A DNA stretch of 64,000 nucleotides from Bdellovibrio bacteriovorus (GCF_001592735.1 NZ_LUKE01000002.1:1-64000), one strand, 5' to 3'; counted from the first letter of the stretch, positions 27,559-44,635 are shown. Numbers and translations are program-made. The notes: a model not told the origin generated them from the sequence alone.

Positions 27559-28310
27559 AAATCGAAGCTATTGGAACTTTTAAATCTGACCAAGTGCAAC
27601 CCTATGAAGCCGGAAGACAACCTGATGAGTTTCATTCCGAAGGTTGCATCGAACTTTTTGCAGGCTCTAATTTTGAACAAGCCTTAATGGGTCTAGAGGG
27701 GTGTGAATACATCTGGGTTCTTTTTCAGTTCCATCATAATCCAAATTGGAATCCGATGGTGCTGCCACCTCGCGGACGAGATACTAAAATTGGCGTATTT
27801 GCCACCCGCTCCCCTTACCGTCCGAATGGTATTGGCATGAGCTGCGTGCGCGTGGAGCGCATTGATAAATTAAAAATCTATGTGGCGGGAGCAGATATCT
27901 TAGATGGCAGTCCGATCATTGATATTAAACCTTACGTGGCCTATGCCGATTCTATTCCGGGGGCGGAGCCTGAATGGCTAAAAAATGCCGAACGATTTGA
28001 AATATCTGTGAGCCCGTTGGCCGAAAAAAAGATTTCTTGGCTTGAAAGCCACGGCGTCTCACAGTTGCGAGGCTTTATTCGTCATCAATTAGAATATGAA
28101 CCCACCAATTCGAAAAAGAAGCGAGTCAAAGCCCAGGAAAAGGACTATATCTTAGCTTACCGCACTTGGCGCGTGCAGTTTCAGATTAAAGGAACCTTGC
28201 TTGAGGTTTCAGATGTCTTTTCGGGATATTCAGATCACGACCTGAAATTAGAAGAAGATACCTACAGCGATAAAGATCTTCACCGCCTGTTTTTAAAGAC
28301 TTTTATTTAA
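27531..28310 (+). CDS. trmO: tRNA N6-threonylcarbamoyladenosine methyltransferase
   Basis: A 259-residue TrmO (YaeB/TsaA) homologue, methylating t6A37 to m6t6A37 in tRNA for decoding fidelity. Key blocks are IGTFKSD at the start, CEYIWVLFQFHHN, the SAM-binding GVFATRSPYRPNGIGMS (about residues 88-104), and LDGSPIIDIKPYVAYADS. The C-terminal domain (about 150-259) matches the family's extra domain. Its overlap with the preceding SpoU gene indicates cotranscription with metG. The start codon may be GTG at 27543. The stop overlaps the convergent phosphatase gene by eight bases. Confidence 0.9.
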   Translation: MDETVAHKIEIEAIGTFKSDQVQPYEAGRQPDEFHSEGCIELFAGSNFEQALMGLEGCEYIWVLFQFHHNPNWNPMVLPPRGRDTKIGVFATRSPYRPNGIGMSCVRVERIDKLKIYVAGADILDGSPIIDIKPYVAYADSIPGAEPEWLKNAERFEISVSPLAEKKISWLESHGVSQLRGFIRHQLEYEPTNSKKKRVKAQEKDYILAYRTWRVQFQIKGTLLEVSDVFSGYSDHDLKLEEDTYSDKDLHRLFLKTFI

Positions 28311-29778
28311 ATTCCACCATCATCCAGGAAAAATCATCGTCGACGGGATGAATCGAGCGCATATCTTTAAGTCGCGAGGCAATATGCTGAGTTAATGAGG
28401 GGCCTTTTTTAGTCAGTGATTCTTTAAGAAGTTTGATCATCCGGCGATCGCCTAAACTCTTAGGTTGCCCCTCTGCGGGTCCAATTTTCATTTCTGGCAC
28501 CCCGTCGGTGTACACGAAAAGCCAATCGCCTTTTTTTATAACACATTTATTATCCGTAAAAGAAGTCTGACTTTCGCTGCCCAATAAGGGACCGGCATCC
28601 CCTAAGATAAATTCACTGTTCCATTCTCCGGAAGATTTATTCAATAACAAAGGCGAACAGTGGCTGGCATTGGAGTAGGTACATTCGCCCGTCGTCATAT
28701 CTATTTTTGCTAAAAAGAAAGTCATCGTTAAACTTCCTTGAGCGACCTTATATAAAACCTTATGCAGATTTTCTAGCATCCTGGCCGGAGAAATCTTGGG
28801 ATCGTCTTCAAAAACCGAGAATACGGCGCGACTCACGCCCGTAAGCAATGCCGAGGACAGCCCGTGACCGGTGACATCCCCGACGCCCAAATAAAGCATA
28901 TCACCTCGCCGAAAATGATAAAGCCAGTCCCCGCCGCAGCCATGCAATTGCTCACTGTACCCTGAGATAGAATAATGCCGCTCATCCACGTGAAGTTCAG
29001 GAAAAAAACTTTTCTGAACTTTTTCGGCAGTGCGAATCTCTGCATCCATGTAAGACTTTTTTTCTTTAACTAAGATCAAATCTTCGATGTTTTTAGCCAT
29101 CGAGTTAAAGGCATTCGCCAATACTTCGATTTCTTGGGCACCCAGTTTATGCTTAATACGCGCTTTAAGATTTCCCTGACCGATATTATCAACTTCTTTC
29201 GAAAGAACTTCTAACCCCAAAGTCAGACGATTTAGTACTGCGGAAAAAAGCAAAAGACCGAAGGTTAAAATTAAGATCGTGATGATTCCCACGCTGAGCG
29301 CTTGAAACGCCATGGATTTTTGAATTAGAGATACGGGGGCCACGGATAAAATCAATCCCACGCCGGGAACTTGATTGTAACCTAAAAACACCTCGCCATC
29401 GGCAAAGCTGACATCGTTAAAAAGTCCTTCACTGCTGCCGCCACTAAGAACCTGACGCAAACGATCGCTTTTCAAAAGAACATCATCATGCTGGGACTTG
29501 GAATAAGAGTCTTGAAAAAGGATCTTGCCATTTTTATCAATCAACATCGTTCGCGACCACTCGGGCACGCTGAGCTCTTCGTTTAAAATTTGGGGGATTT
29601 TAGAAAATTCCGCTCCCTGAATGGCGCGACTTAAAAAACGATTTTTTTGCAAGATAAGATCAGTGATCATTTCCTTTTTTTCAGTGAACTGTGATTTCAG
29701 AAAAATCACCCCACTGGTTAAGACCGCAAAAACCAACAGGACTGAAATCAATATTTTAATTTGTGAATTGAGTTTCAT
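28303..29778 (-). CDS. Membrane-anchored PP2C/SpoIIE-type phosphatase with HAMP domain
   Basis: A 491-residue inner-membrane signalling protein. TM1 is at about 9-28, a periplasmic sensor segment at about 30-155, TM2 at about 160-185, and a HAMP domain at about 185-240. A PPM/SpoIIE phosphatase domain follows (about 245-491). The metal-binding blocks GGDWLYHF, GDVTGHGLSSALLTG, FVYTDGVPEM and DDDFSWMMVE are present. These phosphatases usually dephosphorylate anti-sigma antagonists. No antagonist or kinase gene is adjacent; the neighbours are trmO and a FecR-like gene. Its promoter region is divergent to the latter. Confidence 0.87.
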   Translation of the reverse strand: MKLNSQIKILISVLLVFAVLTSGVIFLKSQFTEKKEMITDLILQKNRFLSRAIQGAEFSKIPQILNEELSVPEWSRTMLIDKNGKILFQDSYSKSQHDDVLLKSDRLRQVLSGGSSEGLFNDVSFADGEVFLGYNQVPGVGLILSVAPVSLIQKSMAFQALSVGIITILILTFGLLLFSAVLNRLTLGLEVLSKEVDNIGQGNLKARIKHKLGAQEIEVLANAFNSMAKNIEDLILVKEKKSYMDAEIRTAEKVQKSFFPELHVDERHYSISGYSEQLHGCGGDWLYHFRRGDMLYLGVGDVTGHGLSSALLTGVSRAVFSVFEDDPKISPARMLENLHKVLYKVAQGSLTMTFFLAKIDMTTGECTYSNASHCSPLLLNKSSGEWNSEFILGDAGPLLGSESQTSFTDNKCVIKKGDWLFVYTDGVPEMKIGPAEGQPKSLGDRRMIKLLKESLTKKGPSLTQHIASRLKDMRSIHPVDDDFSWMMVEFK

Positions 29779-29802: not shown

Positions 29803-30585
29803 GTGAAAATCACCAAACTTGATATACTTCTTACAACACTTTTGGTCTTTGAGTCGTCGGCTTTAGCCGTTTTGCATTCCAACCAAAAATATTTTTTTGC
29901 AGGCAGTGCTGAAAGTCAAGACTTAGCTTTAGTCACAGAAGCCACGAACGGTGATCTTAGACCCTTTGACTCGCTCAACTTCTTCCCGGTGGAATCAGGA
30001 CAAACCGTGCGAAATGGTGATCTTCTGCGTACCCGTGAGGCCCCGATGATTATTGAAGTCTTGGGAGATAACACGGAAGTCATTATCAATCCTTACTCCC
30101 TTGTTCGGGTGACCTTACACAACCAGAAGATCCAAATTGATTTGCGCCATGGTAAATACACTTTTAAAGCGCCAGCTCTAACATCAGCCCCCATCGAAGA
30201 GTCTAAAAACAAAGACCAGAAGCCCGAAGAAATAAATTCGGAGGTCCAGGATAAAGTGCCCGACAAAGGAAAACAGTTTTATCCAGCCCCCGGCAGTGTC
30301 CTTTTGTATCTTCCCGGAGCCACACTCAAAGTCATCTTAGAGGCTCGCTGTATTGGAGAGTGCCGAGTTTCCATGAGCTTTAATAATGAGCCTTATCTGA
30401 AGCCATTTATCTATCGCCCCATGGAGCCCATTCAAATTTCATTAAATGGTCTAACGGGGCAGTTTCACTGGACCCTGCAAGCTGATGACGGAAACTATAA
30501 AGGTGATTTTGAAGTTCTTCCTTTTAACAAAGACACAATGAAACAGATGTTGGACGCAGGCAAAAACGTTGAAGTCGTTTATTAA
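29803..30585 (+). CDS. FecR-like exported protein
   Basis: A 260-residue protein starting GTG, with an N-terminal signal/anchor (about 1-25). A FecR-type block GQTVRNGDLLRTREAPMIIE then LGDNTEVIINPYSLVRV lies at about 66-108, where family members have the strand repeat. A Pro/Glu/Lys-rich linker follows (about 128-155) and then a second beta-rich domain to the end with one Cys pair. It has no cognate sigma factor here. It is divergent from the PP2C phosphatase gene, 24 bases apart, so the two may form a signalling pair. It abuts the convergent barrel gene. Confidence 0.65.
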   Translation: MKITKLDILLTTLLVFESSALAVLHSNQKYFFAGSAESQDLALVTEATNGDLRPFDSLNFFPVESGQTVRNGDLLRTREAPMIIEVLGDNTEVIINPYSLVRVTLHNQKIQIDLRHGKYTFKAPALTSAPIEESKNKDQKPEEINSEVQDKVPDKGKQFYPAPGSVLLYLPGATLKVILEARCIGECRVSMSFNNEPYLKPFIYRPMEPIQISLNGLTGQFHWTLQADDGNYKGDFEVLPFNKDTMKQMLDAGKNVEVVY

Positions 30586-31188
30586 TTAAAAAACGTAGTT
30601 AAGACCCATCCAAAAAACATTTTCTTTGATTTGCACGCGTGGATCACTGCCCGCAAAACTAAACGCCGAGGTTGAGACTTCCATATTAAATTCAAAACTT
30701 GAATTCAGTCTTAAATCCCCGCCAAGTCCGATATTGATCACGTTATAGTCCCCGGACAATGATTTTGTCGGATCTAAGGATTCTAAATCCGCCCCTAGAT
30801 AAAATTGCCTTTTTCCGTAAAGCGTCGACACATAAGGATTCCAATTTCTTTGAAAGATGTATTCGCCCCAGTTTTCTTTCTGCACAACGCGAGAGGCGCG
30901 GTCTTTTAAATAAATCCTTCCTAAAAGTTCTAGACCGGAAATGGGAACGCCAGAAGAGTTTAAGTCAAACTGCGCCATGTAACCAAAGCCGAAGGCCAAG
31001 CGGTCATTTAAAAAATGCACATACTGAAAGTTAAACCCACCCGTACTGACCGCCGAGCCTTTATTAGTACCGGTATTTTCATAAAGCCCCGCCCCCGTGC
31101 GCAAGACTATTTTGGAAAAAACTTGTAAATTTTCAGCGTGAACCGCGTATGGAGACAAAATAAAAAGGAGTGCTAGAAAAATTCTCAC
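30586..31188 (-). CDS. Outer-membrane beta-barrel in a MotAB operon
   Basis: A 200-residue protein with signal peptide (about 1-18, ending VHA). Alternating strands include GGFNFQYVHFLNDRLAFGFG and NIGLGGDLRLNSSFEFNMEV. The terminal Phe (LNYVF) is the Bam-type barrel signature. The size suggests an eight-strand barrel. It is the last gene of the operon starting at motA (35014) and overlaps the previous gene by four bases. It may be the outer-membrane element of the envelope assembly proposed there, which is inference from context. Confidence 0.78.
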   Translation of the reverse strand: MRIFLALLFILSPYAVHAENLQVFSKIVLRTGAGLYENTGTNKGSAVSTGGFNFQYVHFLNDRLAFGFGYMAQFDLNSSGVPISGLELLGRIYLKDRASRVVQKENWGEYIFQRNWNPYVSTLYGKRQFYLGADLESLDPTKSLSGDYNVINIGLGGDLRLNSSFEFNMEVSTSAFSFAGSDPRVQIKENVFWMGLNYVF

Positions 31189-32912
31189 GCCGCTGACGCC
31201 TTTCGATCCATGGACACGAGCCCTAGCGTTGGCAATACGGGTAACTTCTGATTCATATGAGCTCTTAAGGCGTCATCTAAAAGATCCCGCGCCATGGCTA
31301 AGCTTTGCTCTTTATCTAGTGTTCCGTCACCACGTTGAGCTTTATTAAATAGATCCATAACAATGGATTTTTTAATACCCTCGGGCAAAAGACCGATCAG
31401 GAAATCACGATCATTTTCGGGCGAACAAATTAAAAGCGCGGCTAAAGAGTCGTTGGCTTGCATCGCCACAAAGGCTTTTAAAGCCGCGGGCTGAACAGAT
31501 TTTAAATTTCGCAACGTCCAAATCTGCTTATCCAGCTCACGCTTCAGGGGCGGTTGTTTATCGGCGATGCGATCAATAAAATCCTGATCTTGCCCCAAAG
31601 GCATCGCTTTAATCGAGCTTACCAGGGAAAGAATCACTTTTTGTCCCACCCCGTTTTCATCACGCACCGAAGAAATCTGGGCAAAGACACGAGGCTTTAA
31701 CATCGAGAACTGTGTTTTCACATCTTGGGGCTGAAGCTTTTCACCCTCAATCACGCGGTCCCATTCGTCTTGAGAAATTCTTTGTGCGTTTTTAGATAAA
31801 ATTTCAGGCGGCAAGGCTTCGAAAACGATTTTCCAGAGCCAGCTCTGACGCTCTTTTAAAGCCAACTCAAACAAGGCTTCGCCGTCTACCCGGAAAAGCA
31901 AAGACAGATCTTCGGGAGATAAAACTTCCTCAAGGAAAACGCGACGGTCCATCGTGAGCAGAGTCAACTTTTCCACAGTTTCTCGCGCCCATTGCGATAA
32001 AACGAAGTTTTCCCCATGCGGATCTTCTTCCACCATGCGTTTGATACGGTCTTTACCTAAAAATACCGAAATATTTTCTTTTTCATCGGCTTGCAAGTGG
32101 CTTAACAACCAACGCAATCCCGCACGATTTTCTGGAGAGTCTTGCAAATAAGAGGTCACGCGGTAGGGTTGGCTTGCACAAAGATGTCTTAAAACTTTCA
32201 GCGAGTGAGCCAGATCCGTTTGCGAGTGCTGAGTTTTTTTTGAAGCCAAGGATTTCTTTTCTTTCCCCTTACCCTCTTCTGTTTTTTGCTTCATTGACAA
32301 CATATTGCTGCTAAATATTTTAGCCGCTTTAGTTATGTAGACGCCGGCTGTCCTAAAAGCTGCATAGATCACCACGCCGATAAAGAATACACAAGCCGCC
32401 ATAAAGCAGTAATTCAGAATTTCAGTGCGTGTCAGGGGTTTTTCTTTTGGCTCCTCAATTTTCTTTTCTTCGATCACTTTTTTAACTGGCTCTGCAAAGT
32501 CCACCAATTGCACGGCAATGACGGGACGATACACCGCAAAGCTGCGACGTAAAATATCTCTGAATTTTGCGATGGCTTTAGAGTCTAACCGACTGGAAAT
32601 CACGAGGTTGATGTTGGTCGCTTCAATTCTTTCTAGCAGTGGCTTTTCGTTTTCAAAAAATCTTGTCGATGAGTTCATATTGGGAAGATAACCCATATCA
32701 AGTTCTTCGGTGATGACCTGAGGGCTATTTCTTAAGCGCATATTCACTTCAACCGCAATATAAGCCGTTTCGCCAAACTGAACGCGAGCGATATTTAAAA
32801 TATTTTCGCGTATGGAACGACTTAATTCTAAGGTCACGTCCGACTGCGAAAACGCCGTCGAGTGGCTCAAGATGATCATAGCGCTGATCAACCATCGGGT
32901 TAATAATCTCAT
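31185..32912 (-). CDS. Inner-membrane protein with FliF/FliG-like features, in a MotAB operon
   Basis: A 575-residue protein with signal peptide (1-22), periplasmic domain (about 23-160), one transmembrane helix (about 165-187) and a cytoplasmic helical domain (about 195-575). The periplasmic part has an alpha/beta ring-building-like look (NLVISSRLDSKAIAKFRDIL then VIAVQLVDF). The cytoplasmic part has segments reminiscent of FliG middle/C-terminal repeats (EVLSPEDLSLLFRVDGEALF; FEALPPEILSKNAQRI; IGLLPEGIKKSIVMDLF). FliG is the flagellar rotor protein that stators push. A membrane-tethered protein combining both, translated with MotAB, could be a rotor-like partner. The FliG likeness is by eye only. 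Four-base overlaps join both neighbours. Confidence 0.62.
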   Translation of the reverse strand: MRLLTRWLISAMIILSHSTAFSQSDVTLELSRSIRENILNIARVQFGETAYIAVEVNMRLRNSPQVITEELDMGYLPNMNSSTRFFENEKPLLERIEATNINLVISSRLDSKAIAKFRDILRRSFAVYRPVIAVQLVDFAEPVKKVIEEKKIEEPKEKPLTRTEILNYCFMAACVFFIGVVIYAAFRTAGVYITKAAKIFSSNMLSMKQKTEEGKGKEKKSLASKKTQHSQTDLAHSLKVLRHLCASQPYRVTSYLQDSPENRAGLRWLLSHLQADEKENISVFLGKDRIKRMVEEDPHGENFVLSQWARETVEKLTLLTMDRRVFLEEVLSPEDLSLLFRVDGEALFELALKERQSWLWKIVFEALPPEILSKNAQRISQDEWDRVIEGEKLQPQDVKTQFSMLKPRVFAQISSVRDENGVGQKVILSLVSSIKAMPLGQDQDFIDRIADKQPPLKRELDKQIWTLRNLKSVQPAALKAFVAMQANDSLAALLICSPENDRDFLIGLLPEGIKKSIVMDLFNKAQRGDGTLDKEQSLAMARDLLDDALRAHMNQKLPVLPTLGLVSMDRKASAA

Positions 32913-33496
32913 TGCGACCCTCGCTCTTTTTTCAAACGCTCAACAAGACGAGCTGCGACAGCGTCATCCGGATCAAGAGTCAAAGCGCGCTGTAAATTCT
33001 TAAATGCCATCGTAGGATTTTTATTTTCAAGATCCAAGGTCGCCTGCAACACATAAGCGGAAGCCACATTAGGATATTCTTTCATAAAATTATTCAGTCG
33101 TTCTTGAGCTACCGGAAACTTACCGGAAGCAATAAAGCCTTGAATCTCTAAGATCCCACGCGATAGGCCGTTGACTTGTCTTGAGAAATTTAAAAGCATG
33201 CGTTCTTTGAAATATTCCGCTGTGTAAGCTGTCAGATTAAAATTCAAGGTCTGACTTGCCCCCGAATCAACAAACACGTTCTGCGATTCAAAACCAGGTT
33301 TACTGATTTTTACGCTCAGTAAGGGTTTAGCAAAGGCTTCTGGATTCATTTCGGGTTTAATATCTAAAGGAGTCATGCCAACAACTTTGTTATTGATTTG
33401 AACTTCGGCATTAGCCGGCTCGGTTTCAATACGAAAATGGGCTGTCGCACATGAAGTAAGAAATAAAAAAGACGTCAACCCCAAAAGCTTATTCAT
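32909..33496 (-). CDS. PEGA-domain/TPR lipoprotein in a MotAB operon
   Basis: A 195-residue lipoprotein (lipobox FLTSC, Cys16). A PEGA-type beta domain (about 20-90) contains FRIETEPANAEVQINNKVVG and the conserved TPLDI. Two TPR-like helical repeats follow (about 120-190; AYVLQATLDLENKNPTMAFK, ALTLDPDDAVAARL). PEGA domains are found in envelope and surface-layer proteins; TPRs bind partner proteins. It overlaps motB by eight bases and the following gene by four. It may link the complex to the outer membrane, which is inference. Confidence 0.78.
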   Translation of the reverse strand: MNKLLGLTSFLFLTSCATAHFRIETEPANAEVQINNKVVGMTPLDIKPEMNPEAFAKPLLSVKISKPGFESQNVFVDSGASQTLNFNLTAYTAEYFKERMLLNFSRQVNGLSRGILEIQGFIASGKFPVAQERLNNFMKEYPNVASAYVLQATLDLENKNPTMAFKNLQRALTLDPDDAVAARLVERLKKERGSQ

Positions 33497-34229
33497 TTAA
33501 AGCCTCTGCAGATTTGATGATTTTAATAACCACACGACGATTCTGCGCCTGGTTGGCGGGAATATCGAGGCCGTTTGCATCTTTATTGGGGACGATCGGA
33601 CGAGTATCTCCCCATCCTAAAGCTTTCATCTTATTGCGCGCAAACTTGGCCACTTCAAAAAGATGCAAAATACGACAAGCGCGCAGGCTTGAAAGTTCCC
33701 AGTTGGATAAGACTGGCCCCTTGCCGTTTAAGGGGACGTCGTCGGTATGTCCTTCAACCACGATCCCAAAATCACTGGCTTGCGTGGAAATCACCGGAAT
33801 GATTTTTTCCATCAAAGCCAGGGCTTGAGGTTTTAACTCCATGGAACCCGGATCAAAAAAGAGCGCTCCGCGGAAAGTCACGGTCAAACCCTTTTCTGAA
33901 GGTTCGATGACCACTTGGTTTTTGATTTGCGGGTCCGTTAAAACATTTTCAATGCTTTTTTTAAGGTCTTCAAACGGAACTTTGTATTCGCCGCCAAAAA
34001 GTAATGTGGTTTCTTTTTTAACTTTCTCAAAAGACTGATCGTCGATCGTGGAAAAGCTTTGCAAAACGATAAAAAAGCCCACTAAAAGCGTCATCAAGTC
34101 GGCATAGGAAATCAGCCACCCCTCGCCGTCCTCGGATTCATGAGGCACGCCCTCGTAAGGATTTAAATCCTTCAACGCACGAGGCTTAAGCCTTTCTTTT
34201 TTAGTGAAGTCAATTCTTGGCGCCGCCAT
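33489..34229 (-). CDS. motB: MotB-family stator protein
   Basis: A 246-residue stator subunit with one transmembrane helix (about 39-58) carrying the proton-channel Asp44 in WLISYADLMTLLVGFF. The periplasmic plug/linker spans about 60-115. An OmpA-like peptidoglycan-binding domain follows (about 120-235: VEGHTDDVPL, LSSLRACRILHLF, NRRVVIKI). With MotA it forms the 5:2 ion-driven stator. It is translated with MotA (one-base overlap) and followed by non-flagellar envelope genes, so its partner rotor may not be the flagellum. Confidence 0.92.
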   Translation of the reverse strand: MAAPRIDFTKKERLKPRALKDLNPYEGVPHESEDGEGWLISYADLMTLLVGFFIVLQSFSTIDDQSFEKVKKETTLLFGGEYKVPFEDLKKSIENVLTDPQIKNQVVIEPSEKGLTVTFRGALFFDPGSMELKPQALALMEKIIPVISTQASDFGIVVEGHTDDVPLNGKGPVLSNWELSSLRACRILHLFEVAKFARNKMKALGWGDTRPIVPNKDANGLDIPANQAQNRRVVIKIIKSAEALNE

Positions 34230-35014
34230 TATGCCGCCCTCTTCACCGCACTACGCTCTGCCGGAGAAAGATAACTTTTAAGGTATTCTTCCACGAGCAA
34301 GGCATGTTGTTTTTCGCGCAAAAGCGCAATCCCGTCGATCACGATTTCCCGCATCTGATGATCGTCTTCATTGAGCTTTGAAAGATTCTCTCCTACCGGA
34401 ATAAATACAAAGTTGGCCAAGGCGATTCCGTACAACGTCGCCACAAGACCAATAGCCATCGCCGGTCCCAATTTTTTGTAGGCATCCGCAGAGCCCAGGC
34501 TTTGCAAAAGGGCGATCATACCGATCGTTGTTCCCATCAACCCAAAGGCCGGTGGAAATTTCGCTAAGACTTTGAAGGTGGAAGCTTCTTTAGTGTGACG
34601 TTTAAATGTAACCAAAGCTCTTTTTTGTAAAACACTTTCAAGCTGCTCTCCGGATAAAGCGCCATCTAACATCAGTAACATGCCTTCTTTTAAGAATTCA
34701 TTTTGAACACTATTCACGCGGTCTCTGAGTTGCGCCGGATTTTCATCTTGGATTTTTGCTAGCTCCACGATTTCATTGATCACCTTTTCGCGACGGTGAT
34801 CAAACTTACCGAAGAACTTACTCACGATAACTTTAAATGAAGTAAAGATCGTCGCTAGCGGGAAACAAAGCATGGCCGCCGCCGCGGTCCCCCCAAATAC
34901 GATCAGGATCCCATGAGGATCTAAGAAGATTTCGCGTGCTGTGGTCGCTGTAAATAGCGCCGTTAAAAATACAATCACCGCAACAATGAAGCCAAAGATA
35001 GTCGAAAAGTTCAT
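34229..35014 (-). CDS. motA: MotA-family stator protein
   Basis: A 261-residue four-helix stator subunit. Helices lie at about 5-22, 36-55, 145-168 and 183-202. The signature AKFPPAFGLMGTTIGMIALL (TM3 region with the conserved Pro) and LYGIALANFVFIP (TM4 with Pro) are present. The cytoplasmic loop holds LKEGMLLMLDGALSGEQL, a typical charged MotA segment. It is the first gene of a five-gene operon. Bdellovibrio carries several MotAB pairs. The associated downstream genes here are unusual for a flagellar stator locus. Confidence 0.93.
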   Translation of the reverse strand: MNFSTIFGFIVAVIVFLTALFTATTAREIFLDPHGILIVFGGTAAAAMLCFPLATIFTSFKVIVSKFFGKFDHRREKVINEIVELAKIQDENPAQLRDRVNSVQNEFLKEGMLLMLDGALSGEQLESVLQKRALVTFKRHTKEASTFKVLAKFPPAFGLMGTTIGMIALLQSLGSADAYKKLGPAMAIGLVATLYGIALANFVFIPVGENLSKLNEDDHQMREIVIDGIALLREKQHALLVEEYLKSYLSPAERSAVKRAA

Positions 35015-35171: not shown

Positions 35172-38100
35172 ATGAAGAATATTTTTTGCATTTCGGTTCT
35201 TTTTGGATTTTGCATAGTGATGACGGGATGCTTGGAAACATCGTCTCTTTCCGGCCAGCAGTCAGCACAGAGTCAATTCAATGGCTGTACTTCCGCTTTC
35301 GGATTAAGCAATAACTCTGTCCAAATTAATTTTGAATATCCCTCAAACGCCACCAAAGTTATTGTCTTAAGAAATGGTGTGGAAATCGGCAGCTCTTCAT
35401 CTTCTTCAACCACATCCGTTATCGATTTTAATTTAACGGAAGGCGTGACGTACACGTATACTTGCACCGCTTACAACGGACCTCGCCCGATTGTGGGATT
35501 AAGCCAAGCGTTCGCGGCCCCGATCAATACCAACGCTCCGACATTTAGTGGTATTTCAAGTGTCAATGCTTTGAGTTTTTCTTCGGGCAACGCGACGTGG
35601 GCGCCCGAAGCGGCCACGGGAGCGAAAGCTTCTTCTTATAAAGTCTATGCAAATCCCGGCGCCCATGTCGACTGGAATGCAAGTCCACGAGTCATATTAA
35701 AAGCCGATGGAAATATTAGCTATAAATTAGAAAACCTGGGTGATGAACTCACCTACGCCGTCGGCGTTCGCGCGTGTACGGAAGGTGGGATCTGCGACAA
35801 TAACACTCACTTTTTACCACTCACTCTTCCAGATGGCGGCGCGCCCAAAACTTTGGGAGTGTCGAAGGTGTCCGCTTATAATTTGATGGCTTTTTTAGAT
35901 GCGCCTTGGATGGATTCTCAAGGAGCTATTTTAAAGCGTCAGATCTTTATGTGCAAAGTGAGCAGCGGCACGACGTGCAGCTTTTCTAATATCCCGACAA
36001 AAACTTATGCCGTGACGGATCTTGCCGCTCCTCCGACGCAATTGGTTTTAGAAAATATCGAAGAATATGCGGAGTATCGTTTTAAAGTGGTCGACATCGA
36101 CCCATCTGGAAATTCCAATGCAAGCACCACGATTGCTTCCTTAACCACGGGGGATCTGACGGCTCCGTCCTTTGGAGGAATCACGAACTTAACTCGCGGC
36201 ACCCCCGCCAATAGCACGGCCGAGTTTTCATTTATCGCCTTACCAAGAGAAGGAACTTCCGATTCTGGCGCAACGACCGGAGTGACATCGTATCTTTTGT
36301 ATATGAACTCCGCCGATTATCCGGGCACGCCGGCCAACGCTTGTAACAACGCGACTTACTTTAAGAAAATATCTGCTGCCGGTTTTTCCCCCGGCATTGC
36401 CACTTATAATCTGACCGGCCTCAAAGAAAGAACGACTTATTCTTTTTGTTTGCGTGCCCAGGACGCCGCGGGAAATACTTCCGCCAACACCACCGACAGC
36501 CGCGTTTTAACCTCTGATCTGACCGCCCCTAGTTTTGAAGGAATTCAGTCGATCACCTTTAATACGGGCTCAAGAAAAATCATTATCAACTGGAATGCGA
36601 CGTCCTCATCGGATCTGCGCAATTATATTTTAAAAATTTGGAAGAACACTCCGACGCCGGCCGTTTCAGATATCACAAGCTTTACCTTAGCGCCAAGTAT
36701 CACCACACGCGAGTTTACCAGTGCCGATATCGCGATGAATGACTATGACAAAGTTTATGCGGTGGTGGAAGCTTGCGATAATGCCGCGAACTTGGGACTT
36801 GCGGGTTTAAATGACAATTGCACTTTAACCAGCGCCACCAACACGAAATCTATCACCCTGCCCGACATCAATCCTCCGTTGGGATTTACAGGTATTAAGC
36901 CGAGCCTCACCAGCCCCGCAGAAGGAAAGGCGTTGGTTGAGTGGTACGTGCCGACAGCTTGGACATCGGACTATTACGGGTTTCGTATTTATCAAGTGGA
37001 CACTAGCAATAACTCGATTTCCTTAATCACATCTTGTTTGTGCGCGACGCCGGGGTCATGCAATAACACCGATAAGCAGTGTTTGGTCTCTGGCTTAACG
37101 CCCGCAAAATCTTATCGTCTGCATGTCCGGGCCTTTGACGCCTTAGGAAATGAAACAAATTATATCACACCGGATATCAGTTTTGCGGATCTTAAGATCT
37201 CTGACACCACGGCCCCTTCGTTTAACTCCGGCCTTACAATCAATCTTTTAACTCTGAGTTGGAGTGCGGCGACGGACAATCAATTTAATGGCGAAGGGAA
37301 CACGATCACCTACCGCGTCTATCGCAAAGCCAACGCGACATTTACCAATCCTTTAGATCCCAGCGCCGATGGCAGTACCATTGCTACACTGTCAACTCGC
37401 ACCTTTACGGACAACACACTTTCATTAGTGGGAACTTACTATTACACCGTCTGTGCGATTGACTCCGCAGGAAATAGAGCTTGTGACGGCAATATCAAGT
37501 CTATCACCGTGAATGATATTACGCCTCCCACGATTGGTTCATTTACTAGTACGAAGTCCATTGATGATACTTTACTTAAACGATGGTCATTGTCTTGGAC
37601 AATTTCTGATGATGTCACCGCAAGCTCGGCTTTACGCACGCGTATTTACCAAAAATCTTCAGCGACGGATGCCGGAGTTCTGGCGACCACGGCCGATACA
37701 AAAATTTTGGACCAGGTCGGAACTGTTACTTTGGGTCCCCTCACCGGTGACGCCAATACTTCGCAGTTTATTAATTATCTTTTATGGATCCAGGATGCAG
37801 CCGGAAACGTCTCCACCCGAAATATCACGGTCCATTCCGTCAACAATATTGCCATCACGAGTGTTAACTCCACCGTCGGCTCCATTGCCGGAGGACGCAC
37901 CATCGTCATTAAAGGCAGCGGCTTTTCAAAATCAAGCACGAATGGTTATAGTTCAAGCACCGTGGTTAAGGTCGGAGCTCAAGATTGCAATAACATCCAA
38001 ATTCTTTCGGATCGATACATCAGTTGCACGACTCCTTCATCGGTGGCGGGCGTGGTCGCCGTGAGCGTGACAAACCCGGAAGGATCTAGCGCCATTTTAA

Positions 38101-39530
38101 CAAATGCTTATACTTATATTGGAATTTCTTCGTCGGACATTTGTGGCAATCCGAGCAGCTGGGGATCGACCTTTGCTGCGGGCGTGGGTTCTGCCGGAAA
38201 TCCGTTTATTATCTGCACGCCGACACATTTTAATAACATCTTTCAAACAACCCCGATCAACTATGTTTCGGCGAACTATTATTACGCCTTGGGCGACAAT
38301 ATTGATCTTGCATCAAATCCGACAAGTATCAATAGTTGTTCAACCGCCACCAACCTGTTTTTCATTGGAACTTTAGATGGCCGAGGGCATGGGCTTTTAA
38401 ATAATAACGTCTCGACGACCGGGGCTAACGCGTGCATGTTCCAGTTGGGTCATGGGGGAAACACCGTCACCCTTAAAAATATTTCGTTTTTAAATCACAC
38501 CTATACGACGACCTATGCCACCGCTTCACAGTCGGTTTATATGGCCCTTTTTGGACTTGCCGGAAATGCGACCATAAACCTTGATAAGGTTTCTGTCTTA
38601 GCCACTTTCAATCAACCCTCAACGGCGGCCATGACAGTACGCATGGGCGGACTGTTTCACAGTGCCAATATCATTGCCATTGGGGTTAATGTCACCAATT
38701 CGGATGTCGACGTCACATTTTCGACAGCCTCTACTTCGGGAGCTTCAACGGGGGGCATAACAGCCACGCACGGTTACGGCACCCTTTCTGTCGCAGGCTC
38801 TCGCGTGGCGGTCACGCAAAATGTTCCCGCCACCTCCCGTTACTACACTGGCGGAATTACTTATTCTCTAGCAAACTCTTTACTCTCAGTCTCTAAGTCG
38901 GAGGTGTATGTGAAAGTATCCTCTTCTTCCGCCAATAGCACAGCCGGAAGCCGCCTTGCCGGAGTGATCCCCTATCTGGGTGGAAGCTTGATCGTGGATC
39001 AGACGAAAGTTTCTTTTGAAACAAAAAATATATTAGCCGGCTATCAAGGAGGCATTGCGGGACGCGGCAGCGCCTCGGGCTTTGCAAATATCTCCATCAC
39101 CGATTCCTATGTGGTCGGCAGTATGGACGGCGTTGATATCCGCGGCGCCTTGATTGCAGGAGCCGAGGCCGCAAGCTCCAGTTCCACGGTGACATTAGCC
39201 AGAAACATCAGCCATTTGAATTGGAACTATTTTTCTGGCGCACGCTCCGCGGGAGCTTTTTTATACGCACTGGATGGTTCAAGTGCCTATAACGGAACTT
39301 TAAATGCTTCTGGAATTATCTATGACTCATTAAAAAGTGACAGCGGTTCTTTAAGCGGATCTGCCACTAGTGTAAGTGCTACGGGATATTCAACCACCGC
39401 TTTACATGATCAAACCCCGACCACCAATCCTTATGCCTCCGCAGGTTTTGATTTTACGGCAGGCACCGGTAAATGGAAGTGGTGCTATAGCAATGACAGA
39501 CCGTATTTAATGTGGGAGACGTGCCAATGA
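35172..39530 (+). CDS. Giant FN3/TIG/GLUG-like surface lipoprotein
   Basis: A 1452-residue lipoprotein (lipobox IVMTGC, Cys20). About eight fibronectin-type-III-like repeats fill roughly residues 45-890, many starting with an Asp-x-Thr-x-Pro-Ser-Phe block (DLTAPSFGG, DLTAPSFEG, DTTAPSFNS). An IPT/TIG domain follows (about 895-985, ending VSVTNPEGSS). The C-terminal domain (about 990-1452) is Ser/Thr/Asn-rich, has GLUG-like turns (GTLDGRGHGLLNNN) and is probably a beta-solenoid. The composition fits an extended surface adhesin. It is the first gene of a five-gene operon; its stop overlaps the next ATG. Confidence 0.8.
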   Translation: MKNIFCISVLFGFCIVMTGCLETSSLSGQQSAQSQFNGCTSAFGLSNNSVQINFEYPSNATKVIVLRNGVEIGSSSSSSTTSVIDFNLTEGVTYTYTCTAYNGPRPIVGLSQAFAAPINTNAPTFSGISSVNALSFSSGNATWAPEAATGAKASSYKVYANPGAHVDWNASPRVILKADGNISYKLENLGDELTYAVGVRACTEGGICDNNTHFLPLTLPDGGAPKTLGVSKVSAYNLMAFLDAPWMDSQGAILKRQIFMCKVSSGTTCSFSNIPTKTYAVTDLAAPPTQLVLENIEEYAEYRFKVVDIDPSGNSNASTTIASLTTGDLTAPSFGGITNLTRGTPANSTAEFSFIALPREGTSDSGATTGVTSYLLYMNSADYPGTPANACNNATYFKKISAAGFSPGIATYNLTGLKERTTYSFCLRAQDAAGNTSANTTDSRVLTSDLTAPSFEGIQSITFNTGSRKIIINWNATSSSDLRNYILKIWKNTPTPAVSDITSFTLAPSITTREFTSADIAMNDYDKVYAVVEACDNAANLGLAGLNDNCTLTSATNTKSITLPDINPPLGFTGIKPSLTSPAEGKALVEWYVPTAWTSDYYGFRIYQVDTSNNSISLITSCLCATPGSCNNTDKQCLVSGLTPAKSYRLHVRAFDALGNETNYITPDISFADLKISDTTAPSFNSGLTINLLTLSWSAATDNQFNGEGNTITYRVYRKANATFTNPLDPSADGSTIATLSTRTFTDNTLSLVGTYYYTVCAIDSAGNRACDGNIKSITVNDITPPTIGSFTSTKSIDDTLLKRWSLSWTISDDVTASSALRTRIYQKSSATDAGVLATTADTKILDQVGTVTLGPLTGDANTSQFINYLLWIQDAAGNVSTRNITVHSVNNIAITSVNSTVGSIAGGRTIVIKGSGFSKSSTNGYSSSTVVKVGAQDCNNIQILSDRYISCTTPSSVAGVVAVSVTNPEGSSAILTNAYTYIGISSSDICGNPSSWGSTFAAGVGSAGNPFIICTPTHFNNIFQTTPINYVSANYYYALGDNIDLASNPTSINSCSTATNLFFIGTLDGRGHGLLNNNVSTTGANACMFQLGHGGNTVTLKNISFLNHTYTTTYATASQSVYMALFGLAGNATINLDKVSVLATFNQPSTAAMTVRMGGLFHSANIIAIGVNVTNSDVDVTFSTASTSGASTGGITATHGYGTLSVAGSRVAVTQNVPATSRYYTGGITYSLANSLLSVSKSEVYVKVSSSSANSTAGSRLAGVIPYLGGSLIVDQTKVSFETKNILAGYQGGIAGRGSASGFANISITDSYVVGSMDGVDIRGALIAGAEAASSSSTVTLARNISHLNWNYFSGARSAGAFLYALDGSSAYNGTLNASGIIYDSLKSDSGSLSGSATSVSATGYSTTALHDQTPTTNPYASAGFDFTAGTGKWKWCYSNDRPYLMWETCQ

Positions 39531-41095
39531 GAATTTTAATCTTCGTCTTGCTCTCAATTTCAGCCTTTGCAAGCCAAGCGCAGACCTTAACTCCTTTGGC
39601 GTTTTTTGCACGGTGCTATGGTCATTTAACGGGACAGCCTTTGCCCTTAAATCATGCTTTGCGCGCCCCGCTTACGGCCGGAACTCTTTCTGGCCAACAG
39701 GCTTGCGCGGATCTGCTTGATAGTGCGGTGATTGATGGCACTTCCCATCAAGTTAGCAACGCTGAAGGACAATTGGTTTTAAATCGTCTTTATGAATTTC
39801 ATCGCTCTTGGGTGACGAACGGCGTGTTTGAGCAAATGGAGGCTTATCTTCCCACCCCAGGCACTTATAATATTTTAGATTCGACAGAAACCGCGCTGGC
39901 CATCACTTACAATGGTTTATATTCAGGAGCTCGCTATGAAAATGTTCTTAAAGGTGACAAGGGCTATGTCGCTTTAAGAACTCCAGATCCTGCGATCACC
40001 GCAAGATATTATTCCACGGCCCACAGCATGCCGATCCGCCGAATCAAGCCCGGCGCCGAGGCTTCTGCCCCTTACGTGCCATTTAAAATCCCCGGTACTT
40101 GGAGCGGAAGTGATTACGCGACCAGTGAAGTTCAGCTTTTTCCGGCGATTCAAATCGGCAGCTTAACGGGTATTAAGCTGCAAGATCAGACGGCGAATGT
40201 TGCCAACTATTGGCCGGGATTTTCTCGTTTTAATGGCAGTCCTTCAAAAACCGAAACCGCGACCGGAACTGCGGGGATGGCGGTGAATTTTGATTTCTTT
40301 AAAAATCAAGGCGGCGGAGTTTTGGGCTTAAATACGAATATATTAATCAACTATGGACACCCCATCGGACAACTCTCAGACGGTGCTTTAAAACTCCCCC
40401 GTCGTTGGGTTAAAGAAACCTTGCACACACTTCTTTGTACGGAACTGCCCGCGTTACGGGAAAGCGACGTTCAAGCCTATATTGATTCTCGCACCGGCGA
40501 TGACGTGGCCCCGTGGAGATCCAGTGCGGCTTGTTTACAGTGCCACACAACGATGGACCCACTGGCTAGCACCGCACGAAATTTAACAATCAGCCAAACC
40601 GACTACAGCACACGCACAGTGGTGAACCCCTCCACAAACAAGATCGCTTATAGCTCTTATATGCTTGGCAAGTTCACCGTGAATGACAACTCGGCTTTTT
40701 CTTGGTCGTCTACACCCGTCCCCAACTTTCATCGCATGAAACCCACTGGCAAAGTCATCATGCGCACTTTTTCAGGGCGTTTAATTAATTCCACGGTGAA
40801 TAATATGGAAGAAGCCGGCTCTTTACTTTCACAAAGTGAAGACCTTTATCAGTGCGCCACAAAAAGATATTTTGAACTTTTAACGGGAATCTCGGTCCCC
40901 CTTTATGACCGTGGTGATCCGCGTTTTGCGCAAACCACGGCAAGCCTTTCAACGGCCGCCCTTAAGAATCGTCTGTTCATTGAAGGGGTTGCAAAACGAT
41001 TTAAAGAGTCGCAGTCCTTACGTTCGATGATCAAAGAAATTATCAATTCAAATTACTATCGTGATGCCAATTACCTTGCGGGAGGTACAAAATGA
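39527..41095 (+). CDS. Exported CxxCH protein resembling the DUF1592/1588 group
   Basis: A 522-residue exported protein, signal peptide about 1-18. Early it has FFARCYGHLTGQPL, similar to the YxRLTGR start in planctomycete DUF1592-type proteins. A heme-binding-type CLQCH (336-340) sits in the block AACLQCHTTMDPLAS, which corresponds to the CASCHxxMDPLG of DUF1588. A single CxxCH could hold heme c. A long C-terminal region resembles DUF1585. Planctomycetes often pair such proteins with a DUF1501/1552 partner, as here. The start (39527) overlaps the previous stop as ATGA. Confidence 0.75.
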   Translation: MRILIFVLLSISAFASQAQTLTPLAFFARCYGHLTGQPLPLNHALRAPLTAGTLSGQQACADLLDSAVIDGTSHQVSNAEGQLVLNRLYEFHRSWVTNGVFEQMEAYLPTPGTYNILDSTETALAITYNGLYSGARYENVLKGDKGYVALRTPDPAITARYYSTAHSMPIRRIKPGAEASAPYVPFKIPGTWSGSDYATSEVQLFPAIQIGSLTGIKLQDQTANVANYWPGFSRFNGSPSKTETATGTAGMAVNFDFFKNQGGGVLGLNTNILINYGHPIGQLSDGALKLPRRWVKETLHTLLCTELPALRESDVQAYIDSRTGDDVAPWRSSAACLQCHTTMDPLASTARNLTISQTDYSTRTVVNPSTNKIAYSSYMLGKFTVNDNSAFSWSSTPVPNFHRMKPTGKVIMRTFSGRLINSTVNNMEEAGSLLSQSEDLYQCATKRYFELLTGISVPLYDRGDPRFAQTTASLSTAALKNRLFIEGVAKRFKESQSLRSMIKEIINSNYYRDANYLAGGTK

Positions 41096-42741
41096 GTTTG
41101 AACTCACGCCGCCGTTTTCTAAAACAGTCAGGCCTGGCCGTGACGGGTTTGACTTTAGGTGCGCCCGAGGCTTTAGCATCAGCCTTGGTCAAAAATCTTT
41201 TTTCTTCGTCCCGCGCCGAAGCGGCCGATCTAGTTTCACCTCGATATTATTTAAATATCTATGCTGAAGGGGGGCCTCCGCGCCACGTCTTTGATCACTG
41301 GCTTCGCACCAATACCGAGGATCCCAATTTAATCTTTAATCCTTCCACGGGCACCGCCTTCACTTACGACAACAATCGTCTAGTGACCGGCACCGAATAT
41401 AGAACTATCACCCACAACGGCGTTTTAGTTCCGCAGATGTATGCCCATTTAAGTGCGGCGGATCGAGCGGCGTTCTTAGATTCATTTTTAGTGATCCGTG
41501 GTTATGGCTCCGGCATCGATGGCCATGGTTTTAATGCGGCTTTGCAAATGCACCCGCTCGCGGCAGCACCGTCGTTATCGGGGCACGTGGCGGATCACAC
41601 GGCCAGGTATTTTGAGGCCTTGCAATACAGATCTCGTTTTTCATCATCGCGCTTTGTTTCGTCAAAAAACGTGTCTTTAAATTTCTTAACCGGCGAAGAT
41701 CCTCTGTCGGACTTGTTAAAACCACTTTTAGCATCCACCGATAAAGCACGCGCTTTGCGCACGGGATACCAAGATGTGTTCACCAATGTTCGGGGCTATT
41801 TGAATTCTTTAAGCAGCGAGCGCAAGTCCGTGACCATCGCTAAAAAGAGTCTTTCAAACGCCTATGACCTTTTTAAATCAAACATCGCCGATTTTTCTAG
41901 CATTTGGCCAGCATTGCTCTCTGAATACCAAACGGTGGTAGAAACAGCGATTCGAGCTACGGGACTTGCGGGCTTTAATGCCACCCTGGATGGTTCGCAA
42001 AGTATTGCGGCGATATCTAATGGTGAAGCCTCTAAATATAAAATGAACGGCACTTCTTCGTTTATTATTGGGACCGGAAAAAATCTTTTAGACACCGGCA
42101 GCAGTATGACGATGACTCGTTTAATTAGCGGTCTGGCGTTAGCGGATTATTGTATTTCAAATGATCTGACCGGGGCGCTAGAGATCGTCTCGGGAAATTC
42201 GTCGGAAGATCTTTTGATGGATCCAACAGGGGGAGCCGTTTCAACCAACATGTATAGCATGCCCAATGACATGCATAACACCACTCAATATGGCACCGTG
42301 TTTGTAACAACACTTTACTTCCGCGGTTTGATGGCGGGGCTTTTGCATTTACGTAGTAAACTGATCAGCGCCGGAAAATGGAACCAAACCATCGTGCAAC
42401 TGGTTTCTGATTTTGGACGACCTTACACCACGAACGGCAGTGGCCATGGGTATGACCAAATGATTTCTTCGGTCTTTTCTGGTGTGATCACCGGAGGCCC
42501 TTACGTGGTCGGGAATGTCGCGGTCAGCGCGAAAGGACATGTCGGCTCTGACGGATATGCTGCCCCGATTGAGGGTTACAACCAAAAAGGAAAACCCGAT
42601 CCTAAGATGATGGCTTCAACCGTTTCAGAACTTATGGGCGTGTCGGACAATCCCTGGAAGAATTTCGCCCAACCCTTGGTGAAACTGAATTCCAACGGAA
42701 CGCTTTACCTTCCATTTGGGAAAGGAAAGTTGATCGAATGA
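41092..42741 (+). CDS. Tat-exported DUF1501-like protein
   Basis: A 549-residue protein with a twin-arginine signal (SRRRFLKQSGLAVTGLTLG, residues 4-22). This implies export of a folded or cofactor-bearing protein. The body has a sulfatase/alkaline-phosphatase-fold pattern as in DUF1501, including VQLVSDFGRPYTTNGSGHGY near residue 440, close to the family's FGR ... GRDH motif. DUF1501 proteins are usually encoded beside DUF1592/1588 proteins; function is unproven. It overlaps both neighbours by four bases (ATGA type), so it is translated as a unit. Confidence 0.82.
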   Translation: MSLNSRRRFLKQSGLAVTGLTLGAPEALASALVKNLFSSSRAEAADLVSPRYYLNIYAEGGPPRHVFDHWLRTNTEDPNLIFNPSTGTAFTYDNNRLVTGTEYRTITHNGVLVPQMYAHLSAADRAAFLDSFLVIRGYGSGIDGHGFNAALQMHPLAAAPSLSGHVADHTARYFEALQYRSRFSSSRFVSSKNVSLNFLTGEDPLSDLLKPLLASTDKARALRTGYQDVFTNVRGYLNSLSSERKSVTIAKKSLSNAYDLFKSNIADFSSIWPALLSEYQTVVETAIRATGLAGFNATLDGSQSIAAISNGEASKYKMNGTSSFIIGTGKNLLDTGSSMTMTRLISGLALADYCISNDLTGALEIVSGNSSEDLLMDPTGGAVSTNMYSMPNDMHNTTQYGTVFVTTLYFRGLMAGLLHLRSKLISAGKWNQTIVQLVSDFGRPYTTNGSGHGYDQMISSVFSGVITGGPYVVGNVAVSAKGHVGSDGYAAPIEGYNQKGKPDPKMMASTVSELMGVSDNPWKNFAQPLVKLNSNGTLYLPFGKGKLIE

Positions 42742-43514
42742 AAAATTTAAATTGGTCCTTTTATATTTTTTTAAGTGCTTCGATGATTTCGTGCGTCCGT
42801 CTAGACCCCACGAAGGTCAGTGTTTCCAAGACGGATGGCAGCTTGGAAGAGCCTTCTATTTCGCCTTCGCCGACACCCTCGCCCTCTGCTCCCAGCGACG
42901 ATCCTTCAACGGATGAACCCGTCCAAAAGGCGTCTGTGGAAACAAATGGATCTTTGGCGCCCCGTTCTTATGTGTCGCAAGTTCTTAAAGAGGCATTCGG
43001 CAGCACGGTGGTCACCGTTACAAACTTAGAAGTGAACCTGGATAATTATATTAATATTAAACCCGGTGCTTTTGGCGTGAGTTGCAATCCTTATTCGACT
43101 TACACGGGTCGAGATTGTGGTGGGGTTGGTGGCGATTTTATTTCCAATGCAAATTCCACCTTTGATCCAGCGGCTTCCACGGTTCGTCAGCTCAATACTT
43201 CCAAAGTGTGTGAGGTTATTTTAGGACGGACCGAAAATTCTGCTGTTTACGCCATCGCCAAACTTATTGGCGAATACAGTGGAACTTCGGCCACAAGTTA
43301 CAATGTGAATCTCCTTAATGAGTTGAACGAAGCCAACATCGTAAAACTTTTTGGCGTGTTTTATCGCGGTCGCGATATCACGCCAGAAGAGTTAAGTATC
43401 TATGTCGGTATGAATGCCGATCTTATCGCAAAATCCCCGACGGTCGCCAAAGTCGATCGTTGGAGAGCGCTGGCGCTGATGATGTGTGAAAGTCCAGATT
43501 GGGGCGTGCTATGA
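42738..43514 (+). CDS. Lipoprotein of the DUF1501 operon
   Basis: A 258-residue lipoprotein (lipobox MISC, Cys19). A Pro/Ser-rich flexible linker (about 35-65, SPSPTPSPSAPSDDPSTDEP) leads to a globular domain (about 75-258) with four or more Cys (FGVSCNPYS, GRDCGG, KVCEVI). The helical end (VFYRGRDITPEELSIYVGMN then RWRALALMMCESPDW) resembles the C-terminal helices of DUF1592-group proteins. It may be an outer-membrane-anchored partner of the adjacent exported proteins. Overlaps both neighbours by four bases. Confidence 0.72.
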   Translation: MKNLNWSFYIFLSASMISCVRLDPTKVSVSKTDGSLEEPSISPSPTPSPSAPSDDPSTDEPVQKASVETNGSLAPRSYVSQVLKEAFGSTVVTVTNLEVNLDNYINIKPGAFGVSCNPYSTYTGRDCGGVGGDFISNANSTFDPAASTVRQLNTSKVCEVILGRTENSAVYAIAKLIGEYSGTSATSYNVNLLNELNEANIVKLFGVFYRGRDITPEELSIYVGMNADLIAKSPTVAKVDRWRALALMMCESPDWGVL

Positions 43515-44635
43515 GATATATTGTTTTTCTGATCTTACTTATAACGACAGCTTGCAAAACAGAAAAACAGCAATTCGGGGGCACTGCTGCTTATGTACCG
43601 CCGACGTCGGGATCAGGAGGCACTGTCGACGATTCAAGCCTTGCAGTGGAATTAATCAATTCCAATTCCTTAAAGCTTTTTTATTCGGCAGAGCAAACCA
43701 CCTCTACCGCCGGAAAGATTGATTCCATTTTAAATCAAAAATCACCCGCCGATACGACGACAACATCCTATTACCATCTCATCCCCAATGATTCTAACCT
43801 CGGCACATTAGAAAACGGCTGGATTAAAATCAATCCCAGCACGTCGTCTCTTTCTTACACCGGATCCTTGCAACAAGATTTAATCTTTAATGCGGTCACC
43901 ATTGTGGCCTTAGTCCGTGGGGATTCCCTGGGAGATTTTATATCGTTAGATCCTTTAGACCGCGAAAGCCAAGCTTTTGCGGTGTCTATCGATGGCGGGA
44001 CCTTGAGAGCAAGATTTTACTCTTCCCCTTCTGATCACTATGAAACAAGCGAAACAGTCACGTCCTCCGGCAGTAATATTATTGTGGCAAACTTTGGGGA
44101 TGATGTGGGCTTAATAACTTTATCTTTAAATGGCAGTCTGAAGACCAATGCTGTGAGTTTGGGAACACCCACTTCGCCCTTCAGTGTGGCGCGGTTCTTA
44201 TCCTTGGGCTCAAGCCTGGCAAATCAGGTTTCTTATATCAAAGAGTTGTATTTATTTAATCGCTCCCTGACAAAAAAAGAAATGGGATCCATGATTCGTA
44301 AAGTCGCTAAAGATCACAGTATCACTGACATCACTCTTCATCCGGACCTTCAAGCCCCAACGACAACCACACCGACGGGCGATCCCAACTTTGCTCCCGC
44401 CAAAGCAGTCTTACAGTCTAGCTGTACTCAGTGTCATGCTTCTTGGGCTTCAGGATCGGCGACCTATTTTAAAAATGTCGGCTTAGTGGTTAAAGGCAAT
44501 GCCGAAGCTTCACCTCTTTATTATCGACTCAAAAATAGCACAGGGTCGAGTGGACCCAAAACAATGCCGCAAAATAGCACGATCTCAAACAGTGAGGCTG
44601 ATTTGATCAAAACATGGATTAATAATATGAACTAA
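43511..44635 (+). CDS. LamG-like/cytochrome-c-like lipoprotein
   Basis: A 374-residue lipoprotein (lipobox ITTAC, Cys15). The middle part (about 45-275) has the strand pattern of a LamG/concanavalin-like domain. A Pro/Thr-rich linker (about 276-290, TTTTPTGDPN) leads to a cytochrome-c-like tail: CTQCH at 305-309 and KTMPQNSTISNSEADLIKTW near the end, the usual Met-containing distal segment. It could transfer electrons at the cell surface. Last gene of the five-gene operon. ATGA overlap with the previous gene. Confidence 0.75.
   Translation: MRYIVFLILLITTACKTEKQQFGGTAAYVPPTSGSGGTVDDSSLAVELINSNSLKLFYSAEQTTSTAGKIDSILNQKSPADTTTTSYYHLIPNDSNLGTLENGWIKINPSTSSLSYTGSLQQDLIFNAVTIVALVRGDSLGDFISLDPLDRESQAFAVSIDGGTLRARFYSSPSDHYETSETVTSSGSNIIVANFGDDVGLITLSLNGSLKTNAVSLGTPTSPFSVARFLSLGSSLANQVSYIKELYLFNRSLTKKEMGSMIRKVAKDHSITDITLHPDLQAPTTTTPTGDPNFAPAKAVLQSSCTQCHASWASGSATYFKNVGLVVKGNAEASPLYYRLKNSTGSSGPKTMPQNSTISNSEADLIKTWINNMN

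Follow-up and report, generated by a model that had tools for sequence, protein, structure and literature searches.

The MotAB module of the window

The stretch analysed here (the window; 64,000 nucleotides of Bdellovibrio bacteriovorus DNA, GCF_001592735.1 NZ_LUKE01000002.1:1-64000, from a genome of 3.93 Mb in 9 contigs) harbours at positions 30586-35014, entirely on the minus strand, a module of five genes: a MotA-type and a MotB-type stator subunit, a PEGA/TPR lipoprotein, a protein of 575 amino acids (aa) and a small candidate outer-membrane beta-barrel protein (OMP) (Table 1; coordinates are those of the whole stretch). The 575-aa protein looks like a natural FliF-FliG fusion, for which we use the name FliFG. 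An earlier annotation made from the sequence alone (the sequence-only reading) had described the five genes as joined by overlaps of 1-8 bases, and the open reading frames (ORFs) lie where it placed them, sharing 1 base (MotA/MotB), 8 bases (MotB/lipoprotein) and 4 bases at both remaining junctions (lipoprotein/FliFG and FliFG/OMP). Its MotA and MotB assignments are borne out by Pfam, and the composition that it proposed (a stator, a rotor-like protein and outer-membrane components) holds.

The MotB of the window combines a transmembrane (TM) helix bearing the ion-carrying aspartate (SYAD) with an OmpA peptidoglycan-binding domain, and the motifs YAD, GH[TA]D and NRR are kept in all 28 module MotBs (28/28). 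A homologue of the PEGA/TPR lipoprotein was found in 36 of the compared loci, and in 32 of 36 cases the OMPs of the family have F, Y or W as their last residue.

Table 1. Genes and protein domains of the module, followed by genes in its vicinity
Feature	Position	Strand	Properties
MotA-type stator subunit	34229..35014	-	261 aa; Pfam PF01618 (MotA_ExbB), E 1.5e-19
MotB-type stator subunit	33489..34229	-	246 aa; PF13677 (MotB_plug), E 1.8e-14; PF00691 (OmpA), E 8.1e-12
PEGA + TPR lipoprotein	32909..33496	-	195 aa; lipobox LTSC; PEGA, E 8.3e-7; TPR weak
FliFG, rotor candidate	31185..32912	-	575 aa; signal peptide, periplasmic RBM3-like domain, one TM helix, cytoplasmic FliG-like domain
FliFG, RBM3-like (FliF S-ring/collar) periplasmic domain	32493..32846	-	residues 23-140
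FliFG, TM helix	32343..32420	-	about residues 165-190; hydropathy peak 168-186; AlphaFold2 helix 162-211
FliFG, FliG-like cytoplasmic domain (N, M, C segments)	31248..32237	-	residues 226-555
Small outer-membrane beta-barrel candidate (OMP)	30586..31188	-	200 aa; signal peptide; C-terminal aromatic (..NYVF); TIGR04565 weak, E 0.056
Divergent giant lipoprotein, candidate surface adhesin	35172..39530	+	1452 aa; fn3, E 4.5e-18; TIG, E 6.6e-12
FecR-like secreted protein	29803..30585	+	260 aa; FecR weak, E 0.027
HAMP-PP2C (SpoIIE-type) membrane phosphatase, candidate regulator	28303..29778	-	491 aa; SpoIIE, E 7.3e-34; HAMP, E 1.5e-8

FliFG combines FliG-like and FliF-like parts

Searches with the single sequence of the 575-aa protein were too weak to place it: phmmer against the PDB gave no relevant match, a genome scan with this protein alone gave none, and BLAST in relatives recovered only paralogues and one other genome; profiles were hence needed. 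Against Pfam FliG_C the protein scored 15 bits (under the cut-off of 23.3), while its two paralogues from the same genome exceeded it (26.4 and 34.5 bits). A four-member family profile retrieved a single match in the PDB, the FliG of Aquifex (E 0.008), and a seven-member profile run against 369 Bdellovibrionota genomes recovered about 40 relatives over their full length, followed by flagellar FliG (E of about 1e-9 to 1e-12), which aligned to profile columns ~350-580 in the C-terminal half. Profile-profile comparison (hhalign) with the phylum's own FliG reached a probability of 98.4% over 286 columns (0.2% for the control comparison of FliG with FliF), Foldseek returned FliG at all of ranks 1-11, and VIA-align superposed FliFG and FliG with a Z of 12.5 over 221 residues. 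As these three methods recover the N-M-C helical architecture of FliG, we regard the cytoplasmic half as firmly established to be FliG-homologous along its length. The sequence-only reading, which had noticed this likeness by eye and proposed profile and structure comparisons with FliG and FliF, is confirmed on this point.

A separate small soluble protein of the same genome (C6:5241-5942, ~233 aa, C-terminal coiled coil) also exceeds the FliG_C cut-off (28 bits); it is not linked to the module, and its relatives at L036 and L037 adjoin ruv genes.

The sequence-only reading overlooked both the likeness of the periplasmic part to the third ring-building motif (RBM3) of FliF and the fact that the module recurs as a conserved unit in several copies. 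In the AlphaFold2 model of FliFG (39 sequences; mean predicted local distance difference test 82.5, predicted template modelling score 0.43) this domain runs helix-strand-[insert]-strand-helix-strand and continues into the TM helix, which is the topology of a ring-building motif (RBM); the insert, with a conserved D[VIM]GYLP motif between beta1 and beta2, sits where FliF RBM3 carries its collar. The best VIA-align rows against FliF RBM3 gave Z values of 10.4-10.8 with root-mean-square deviations (rmsd) of ~3 over 92-99 residues (the top row being 8zdt_A, Z 10.8, rmsd 3.1 over 98 aa). We stress that unrelated small non-RBM folds reach Z values of up to ~9.3, so that the fold alone is not decisive. 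At the sequence level, hhalign aligned the domain's first helix and first strand with FliF RBM3 (41 columns, E 4.8e-5). For FliFG of type I (the type of the HD100-type locus; the copy in the window and its two paralogous copies are of type II), it brought the whole of RBM3 into register over 145 columns (probability 21%, E 0.001; reversed control 4%), pairing GDSV of FliFG with RGDSV of FliF. The TM helix occupies the position of FliF's second one, and the RBM3, TM and FliG parts succeed one another as they would in a FliF continued by FliG. Hydropathy and the AlphaFold2 model place a single ring motif after the signal peptide, with no RBM1, RBM2 or first TM helix, and the Pfam YscJ_FliF (YscJ_FliF_C) profile did not match FliFG.

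In one clade, FliFG is preceded by a second FliFG-related protein that lacks most of the FliG part. A protein of 343 aa related to the periplasmic part (L089:7475-8506) lies directly upstream of FliFG, overlaps it and hints at a mixed ring.

The module is a conserved, multi-copy unit

The genome of the window has two further full copies of the module, one on C1 and one on C6, with rotor identities of ~30%, and the named matches of the family belong to Bdellovibrio, Bdellovibrionaceae, Bdellovibrionales or Oligoflexia. Gene neighbourhoods were counted in the 25 FliFG loci flanked by 6 kb or more on either side: 20 have MotA and MotB, 23 have the lipoprotein and 21 have the OMP. All four partners accompany FliFG in 20 loci, so that the co-occurrence of the five genes, suggested as a check by the sequence-only reading, is complete in most of these loci. 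Two exceptional loci have a more distant MotA (~9 kb in G004 and ~20 kb in G086). Considering that 20/25 loci keep all four partners at rotor identities that fall to ~12-20% among family loci, the gene set cannot be ascribed to chance. Protein distances of FliFG correlate with those of MotA (r = 0.93), MotB (0.93) and the lipoprotein (0.94), and with those of flagellar FliF at 0.45; the closer agreement with the three partners persists when FliF is controlled for, the partial correlation between FliFG and MotA given flagellar FliF being 0.92.

A single two-pattern scan, a limited test of wider distribution, returned 12 loci, all of them from Bdellovibrionota. Some conserved ORF clusters of the neighbourhoods shadow MotA, MotB and the lipoprotein in antisense and were discarded. 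Our search, confined to the open full-text literature (subscription papers and preprints fell outside it), turned up no description of this fusion or of the module.

Stator and rotor contacts have shifted

In the flagellar motor, MotA E98 contacts FliG R281 (PMC12505986). A glutamate at the E98-equivalent position was found in 9/9 flagellar MotAs and in 0/17 module MotAs (the MotA of the window has R), and the R281 equivalent of FliFG is basic (K/R) in type I only and G in type II, while flagellar FliG keeps R281. The acidic character of the D289 position is retained in 40/42 FliFG sequences (the equivalent torque-helix aspartate of the window's FliFG is D520), and the equivalents of K264, D288 and R297 are lost. 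We had expected the FliG-MotA salt bridges to be conserved on both sides; this was not found, and the contacts have shifted instead. The FliM-binding motif EHPQ, present in 7/7 flagellar FliG, is not kept in members of the FliFG family. In the MotA tree both flagellar groups form supported clades (100/99 and 100/100), and the module MotAs fall into two other clades apart from both flagellar types (the MotA of the window clusters with other module MotAs; G048 is unplaced). Taken together, the separate MotA clades, the lost E98 and the lost FliM-binding motif point to a stator and a rotor that fit one another rather than the flagellum.

Flagellar genes and MotAB2

The sequence-only reading had stated that no flagellar genes are present, which stands for the locus and fails for the genome: none of the module loci inspected has flagellar gene neighbours, and the genome of the window carries flagellar FliF, FliG and FliM away from the module. 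In an HD100-type congener the MotA genes lie at 0.129, 2.919 and 3.172 Mb, an order that we take to correspond to Bd0144, Bd3021 and Bd3254, in which case the module pair would be MotAB2 (Bd3021/Bd3020). The operon of this congener also encodes FliFG, the lipoprotein and OMPs; its locus (type I) has no FN3/TIG lipoprotein and has extra genes. Between the lipoprotein and FliFG genes this operon encodes a helical, membrane-anchored protein of 325 aa and a second OMP (L034:10151-11712). To date only a flagellar role has been ascribed to the MotAB2 stator, a reading that the module would change.

Neighbouring genes

A homologue of the giant FN3/TIG lipoprotein (Table 1) was found by a hidden Markov model neighbourhood scan to flank the C1 copy of the same genome and the copies of G040, G088, G365 and G368, and to share a fragment with the C6 copy; it is often present at type II loci. 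FecR-like proteins adjoin the C6 and G040 copies. The PP2C phosphatase is often present at type I loci; it adjoins many copies (the HD100-type one among them) and is found in 11/25 long-flank loci. Downstream of the giant lipoprotein, positions 39512-44635 hold co-directional, overlapping genes for secreted proteins that may form an operon, one product having a CxxCH motif and another a Tat-like signal. The product of 56378-58447 resembles, by eye, a membrane pyrophosphatase (ion pump).

A probable second rotary motor

From the homologies, predicted fold, gene linkage, co-evolution and residue changes reported above, we consider it probable that the five genes encode a second rotary motor, ion-driven and dedicated, which acts on the outer membrane or the cell surface. 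In such a motor MotA and MotB would constitute a peptidoglycan-anchored proton-channel stator, and FliFG would assemble into a ring. The RBM3-like domain would lie on the periplasmic side of a single TM helix, and the complete FliG-like domain on the cytoplasmic side, where it would serve as the track pushed by the stator. Proton flow through MotAB would turn or step this ring, whose periplasmic side may couple to the PEGA/TPR lipoprotein and the OMP, and possibly further on to the giant FN3/TIG lipoprotein at the surface. Since no rod, hook, FliM/FliN or export gate is encoded at the locus, the output would have to pass through the periplasmic ring, the lipoprotein and the OMP.

Several observations weigh against this interpretation. 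The FliF part of FliFG appears strong in structure and modest in sequence, resting mainly on a predicted model. All 40 module genomes are flagellated by FliM or FliF (FliM in 39/40, FliF in 39/40, the misses being incomplete assemblies), a search among them for one without a flagellum found none, and the module occurs in 0/49 genomes that lack a FliG-type match (P 0.002, uncorrected for relatedness). Judging from the title of a paper on the HD100 stators, all three stator pairs reportedly contribute to the motility of the single flagellum. Finally, the seven-member profile search recovered full-length FliFG in only 10/24 genomes of the genus; FliFG is thus not the universal gliding motor of the genus, nor is it needed for predation or gliding genus-wide.

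The restriction to flagellated genomes and the reported contribution of MotAB2 to swimming would both be expected if the module were a flagellar accessory, in which stators of the MotAB2 type and a ring of FliFG supplement, encircle or tune the polar motor, for example as an extra inner-membrane ring. Besides enlarged P/L rings, the B. bacteriovorus motor indeed shows a small ring in the inner membrane whose composition is unknown (PMC5758724); that ring, however, is 12-fold, against the 33-35-fold symmetry of solved RBM3 rings (according to structure titles). Given also that flagellar genes are absent from every inspected locus, that the E98 contact is lost although flagellar FliG keeps R281, and that the module has a ring domain of its own together with lipoprotein and OMP partners (the lipoprotein co-evolving with FliFG), we regard an accessory role as possible and rather unlikely. 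The term 'non-flagellar' used by the sequence-only reading is supported, and not proven: a rotor and a stator clade of its own, the missing FliM-binding motif, the altered contacts and the location outside flagellar loci set the module apart, while the flagellated state of all its carriers and the swimming report speak for a connection.

An energiser of the ExbBD/TolQR kind, in which MotAB would drive the lipoprotein and OMP directly and FliFG would be a non-rotating adaptor or scaffold, seems improbable to us. Outer-membrane work that needs no rotor of the FliG type is known from several relatives of MotAB (PMC9389320), and the torque charges of FliFG are kept in part (K264 and R297 lost, R281 replaced by G in type II); against this, identities of 12-20% still leave the entire FliG-like domain with its D289 acid in place, and the divergence of FliFG parallels that of MotA. 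The patchy distribution and the multiple copies in one genome could also suit duplicated flagellar genes that are decaying or selfish and have no function of their own. The intact reading frames, the channel aspartate and peptidoglycan-binding motifs in 28/28 MotBs and a gene set conserved deep into the phylum make this very hard to credit. The Zorya anti-phage system (ZorA and ZorB with ZorC/D/E) was rejected as a candidate: only MotB matched (to ZorB, as a MotB relative), whereas MotA and the others had no match.

The sequence-only reading had named gliding, secretion and envelope remodelling as conceivable functions. As to the job of the second rotary motor favoured here, the most attractive guess, speculative as it is, would be adhesin-driven surface movement or work at prey contact; the FN3/TIG lipoproteins adjoining the module would suit an adhesin role. 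The motor of Bdellovibrio gliding has not been identified, and the module (whose genes are also found in the HD100-type genome) offers a concrete candidate with named genes; gliding may be its function, an attractive and unproven idea. Tentatively, one may go further and add to the flagellum and the type III injectisome a third lineage of machines derived from the flagellar motor: a minimal rotor, driven by MotAB, made of a single FliF-FliG fusion and devoid of export apparatus. Such a machine would move adhesins of the outer membrane or the surface, and would be the surface (gliding) motor in the Bdellovibrionota that have it. The module would also present the flagellar rotor in stripped-down form, with a bearing on the evolution of flagellar motors.

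Comparison with known systems

With the bacterial flagellar motor the module shares MotA and MotB with the ion-channel aspartate and the peptidoglycan domain, as well as an RBM3-like domain, a TM helix and FliG in FliF-then-FliG order. Unlike in the flagellar motor, the FliF part and FliG are one polypeptide, RBM1/2, the first TM helix, the FliM-binding motif, rod, hook, filament and export gate are lacking, lipoprotein and OMP partners are present, and the MotA-FliG contacts are changed. AglRQS-Glt (Myxococcus) and GldLM (Bacteroidota) resemble the proposed motor in being stator-driven and acting through the periplasm and outer membrane without a flagellum; neither is known to have a FliG-type rotor or an RBM ring. 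The domain order of FliFG (FliF, then TM helix, then FliG) is also that of engineered FliF-FliG fusions, which reportedly can assemble into rings (PMC6079021, PMC11481574). Those are laboratory constructs of flagellar proteins, whereas FliFG is natural and divergent, and keeps only the RBM3-like part of FliF.

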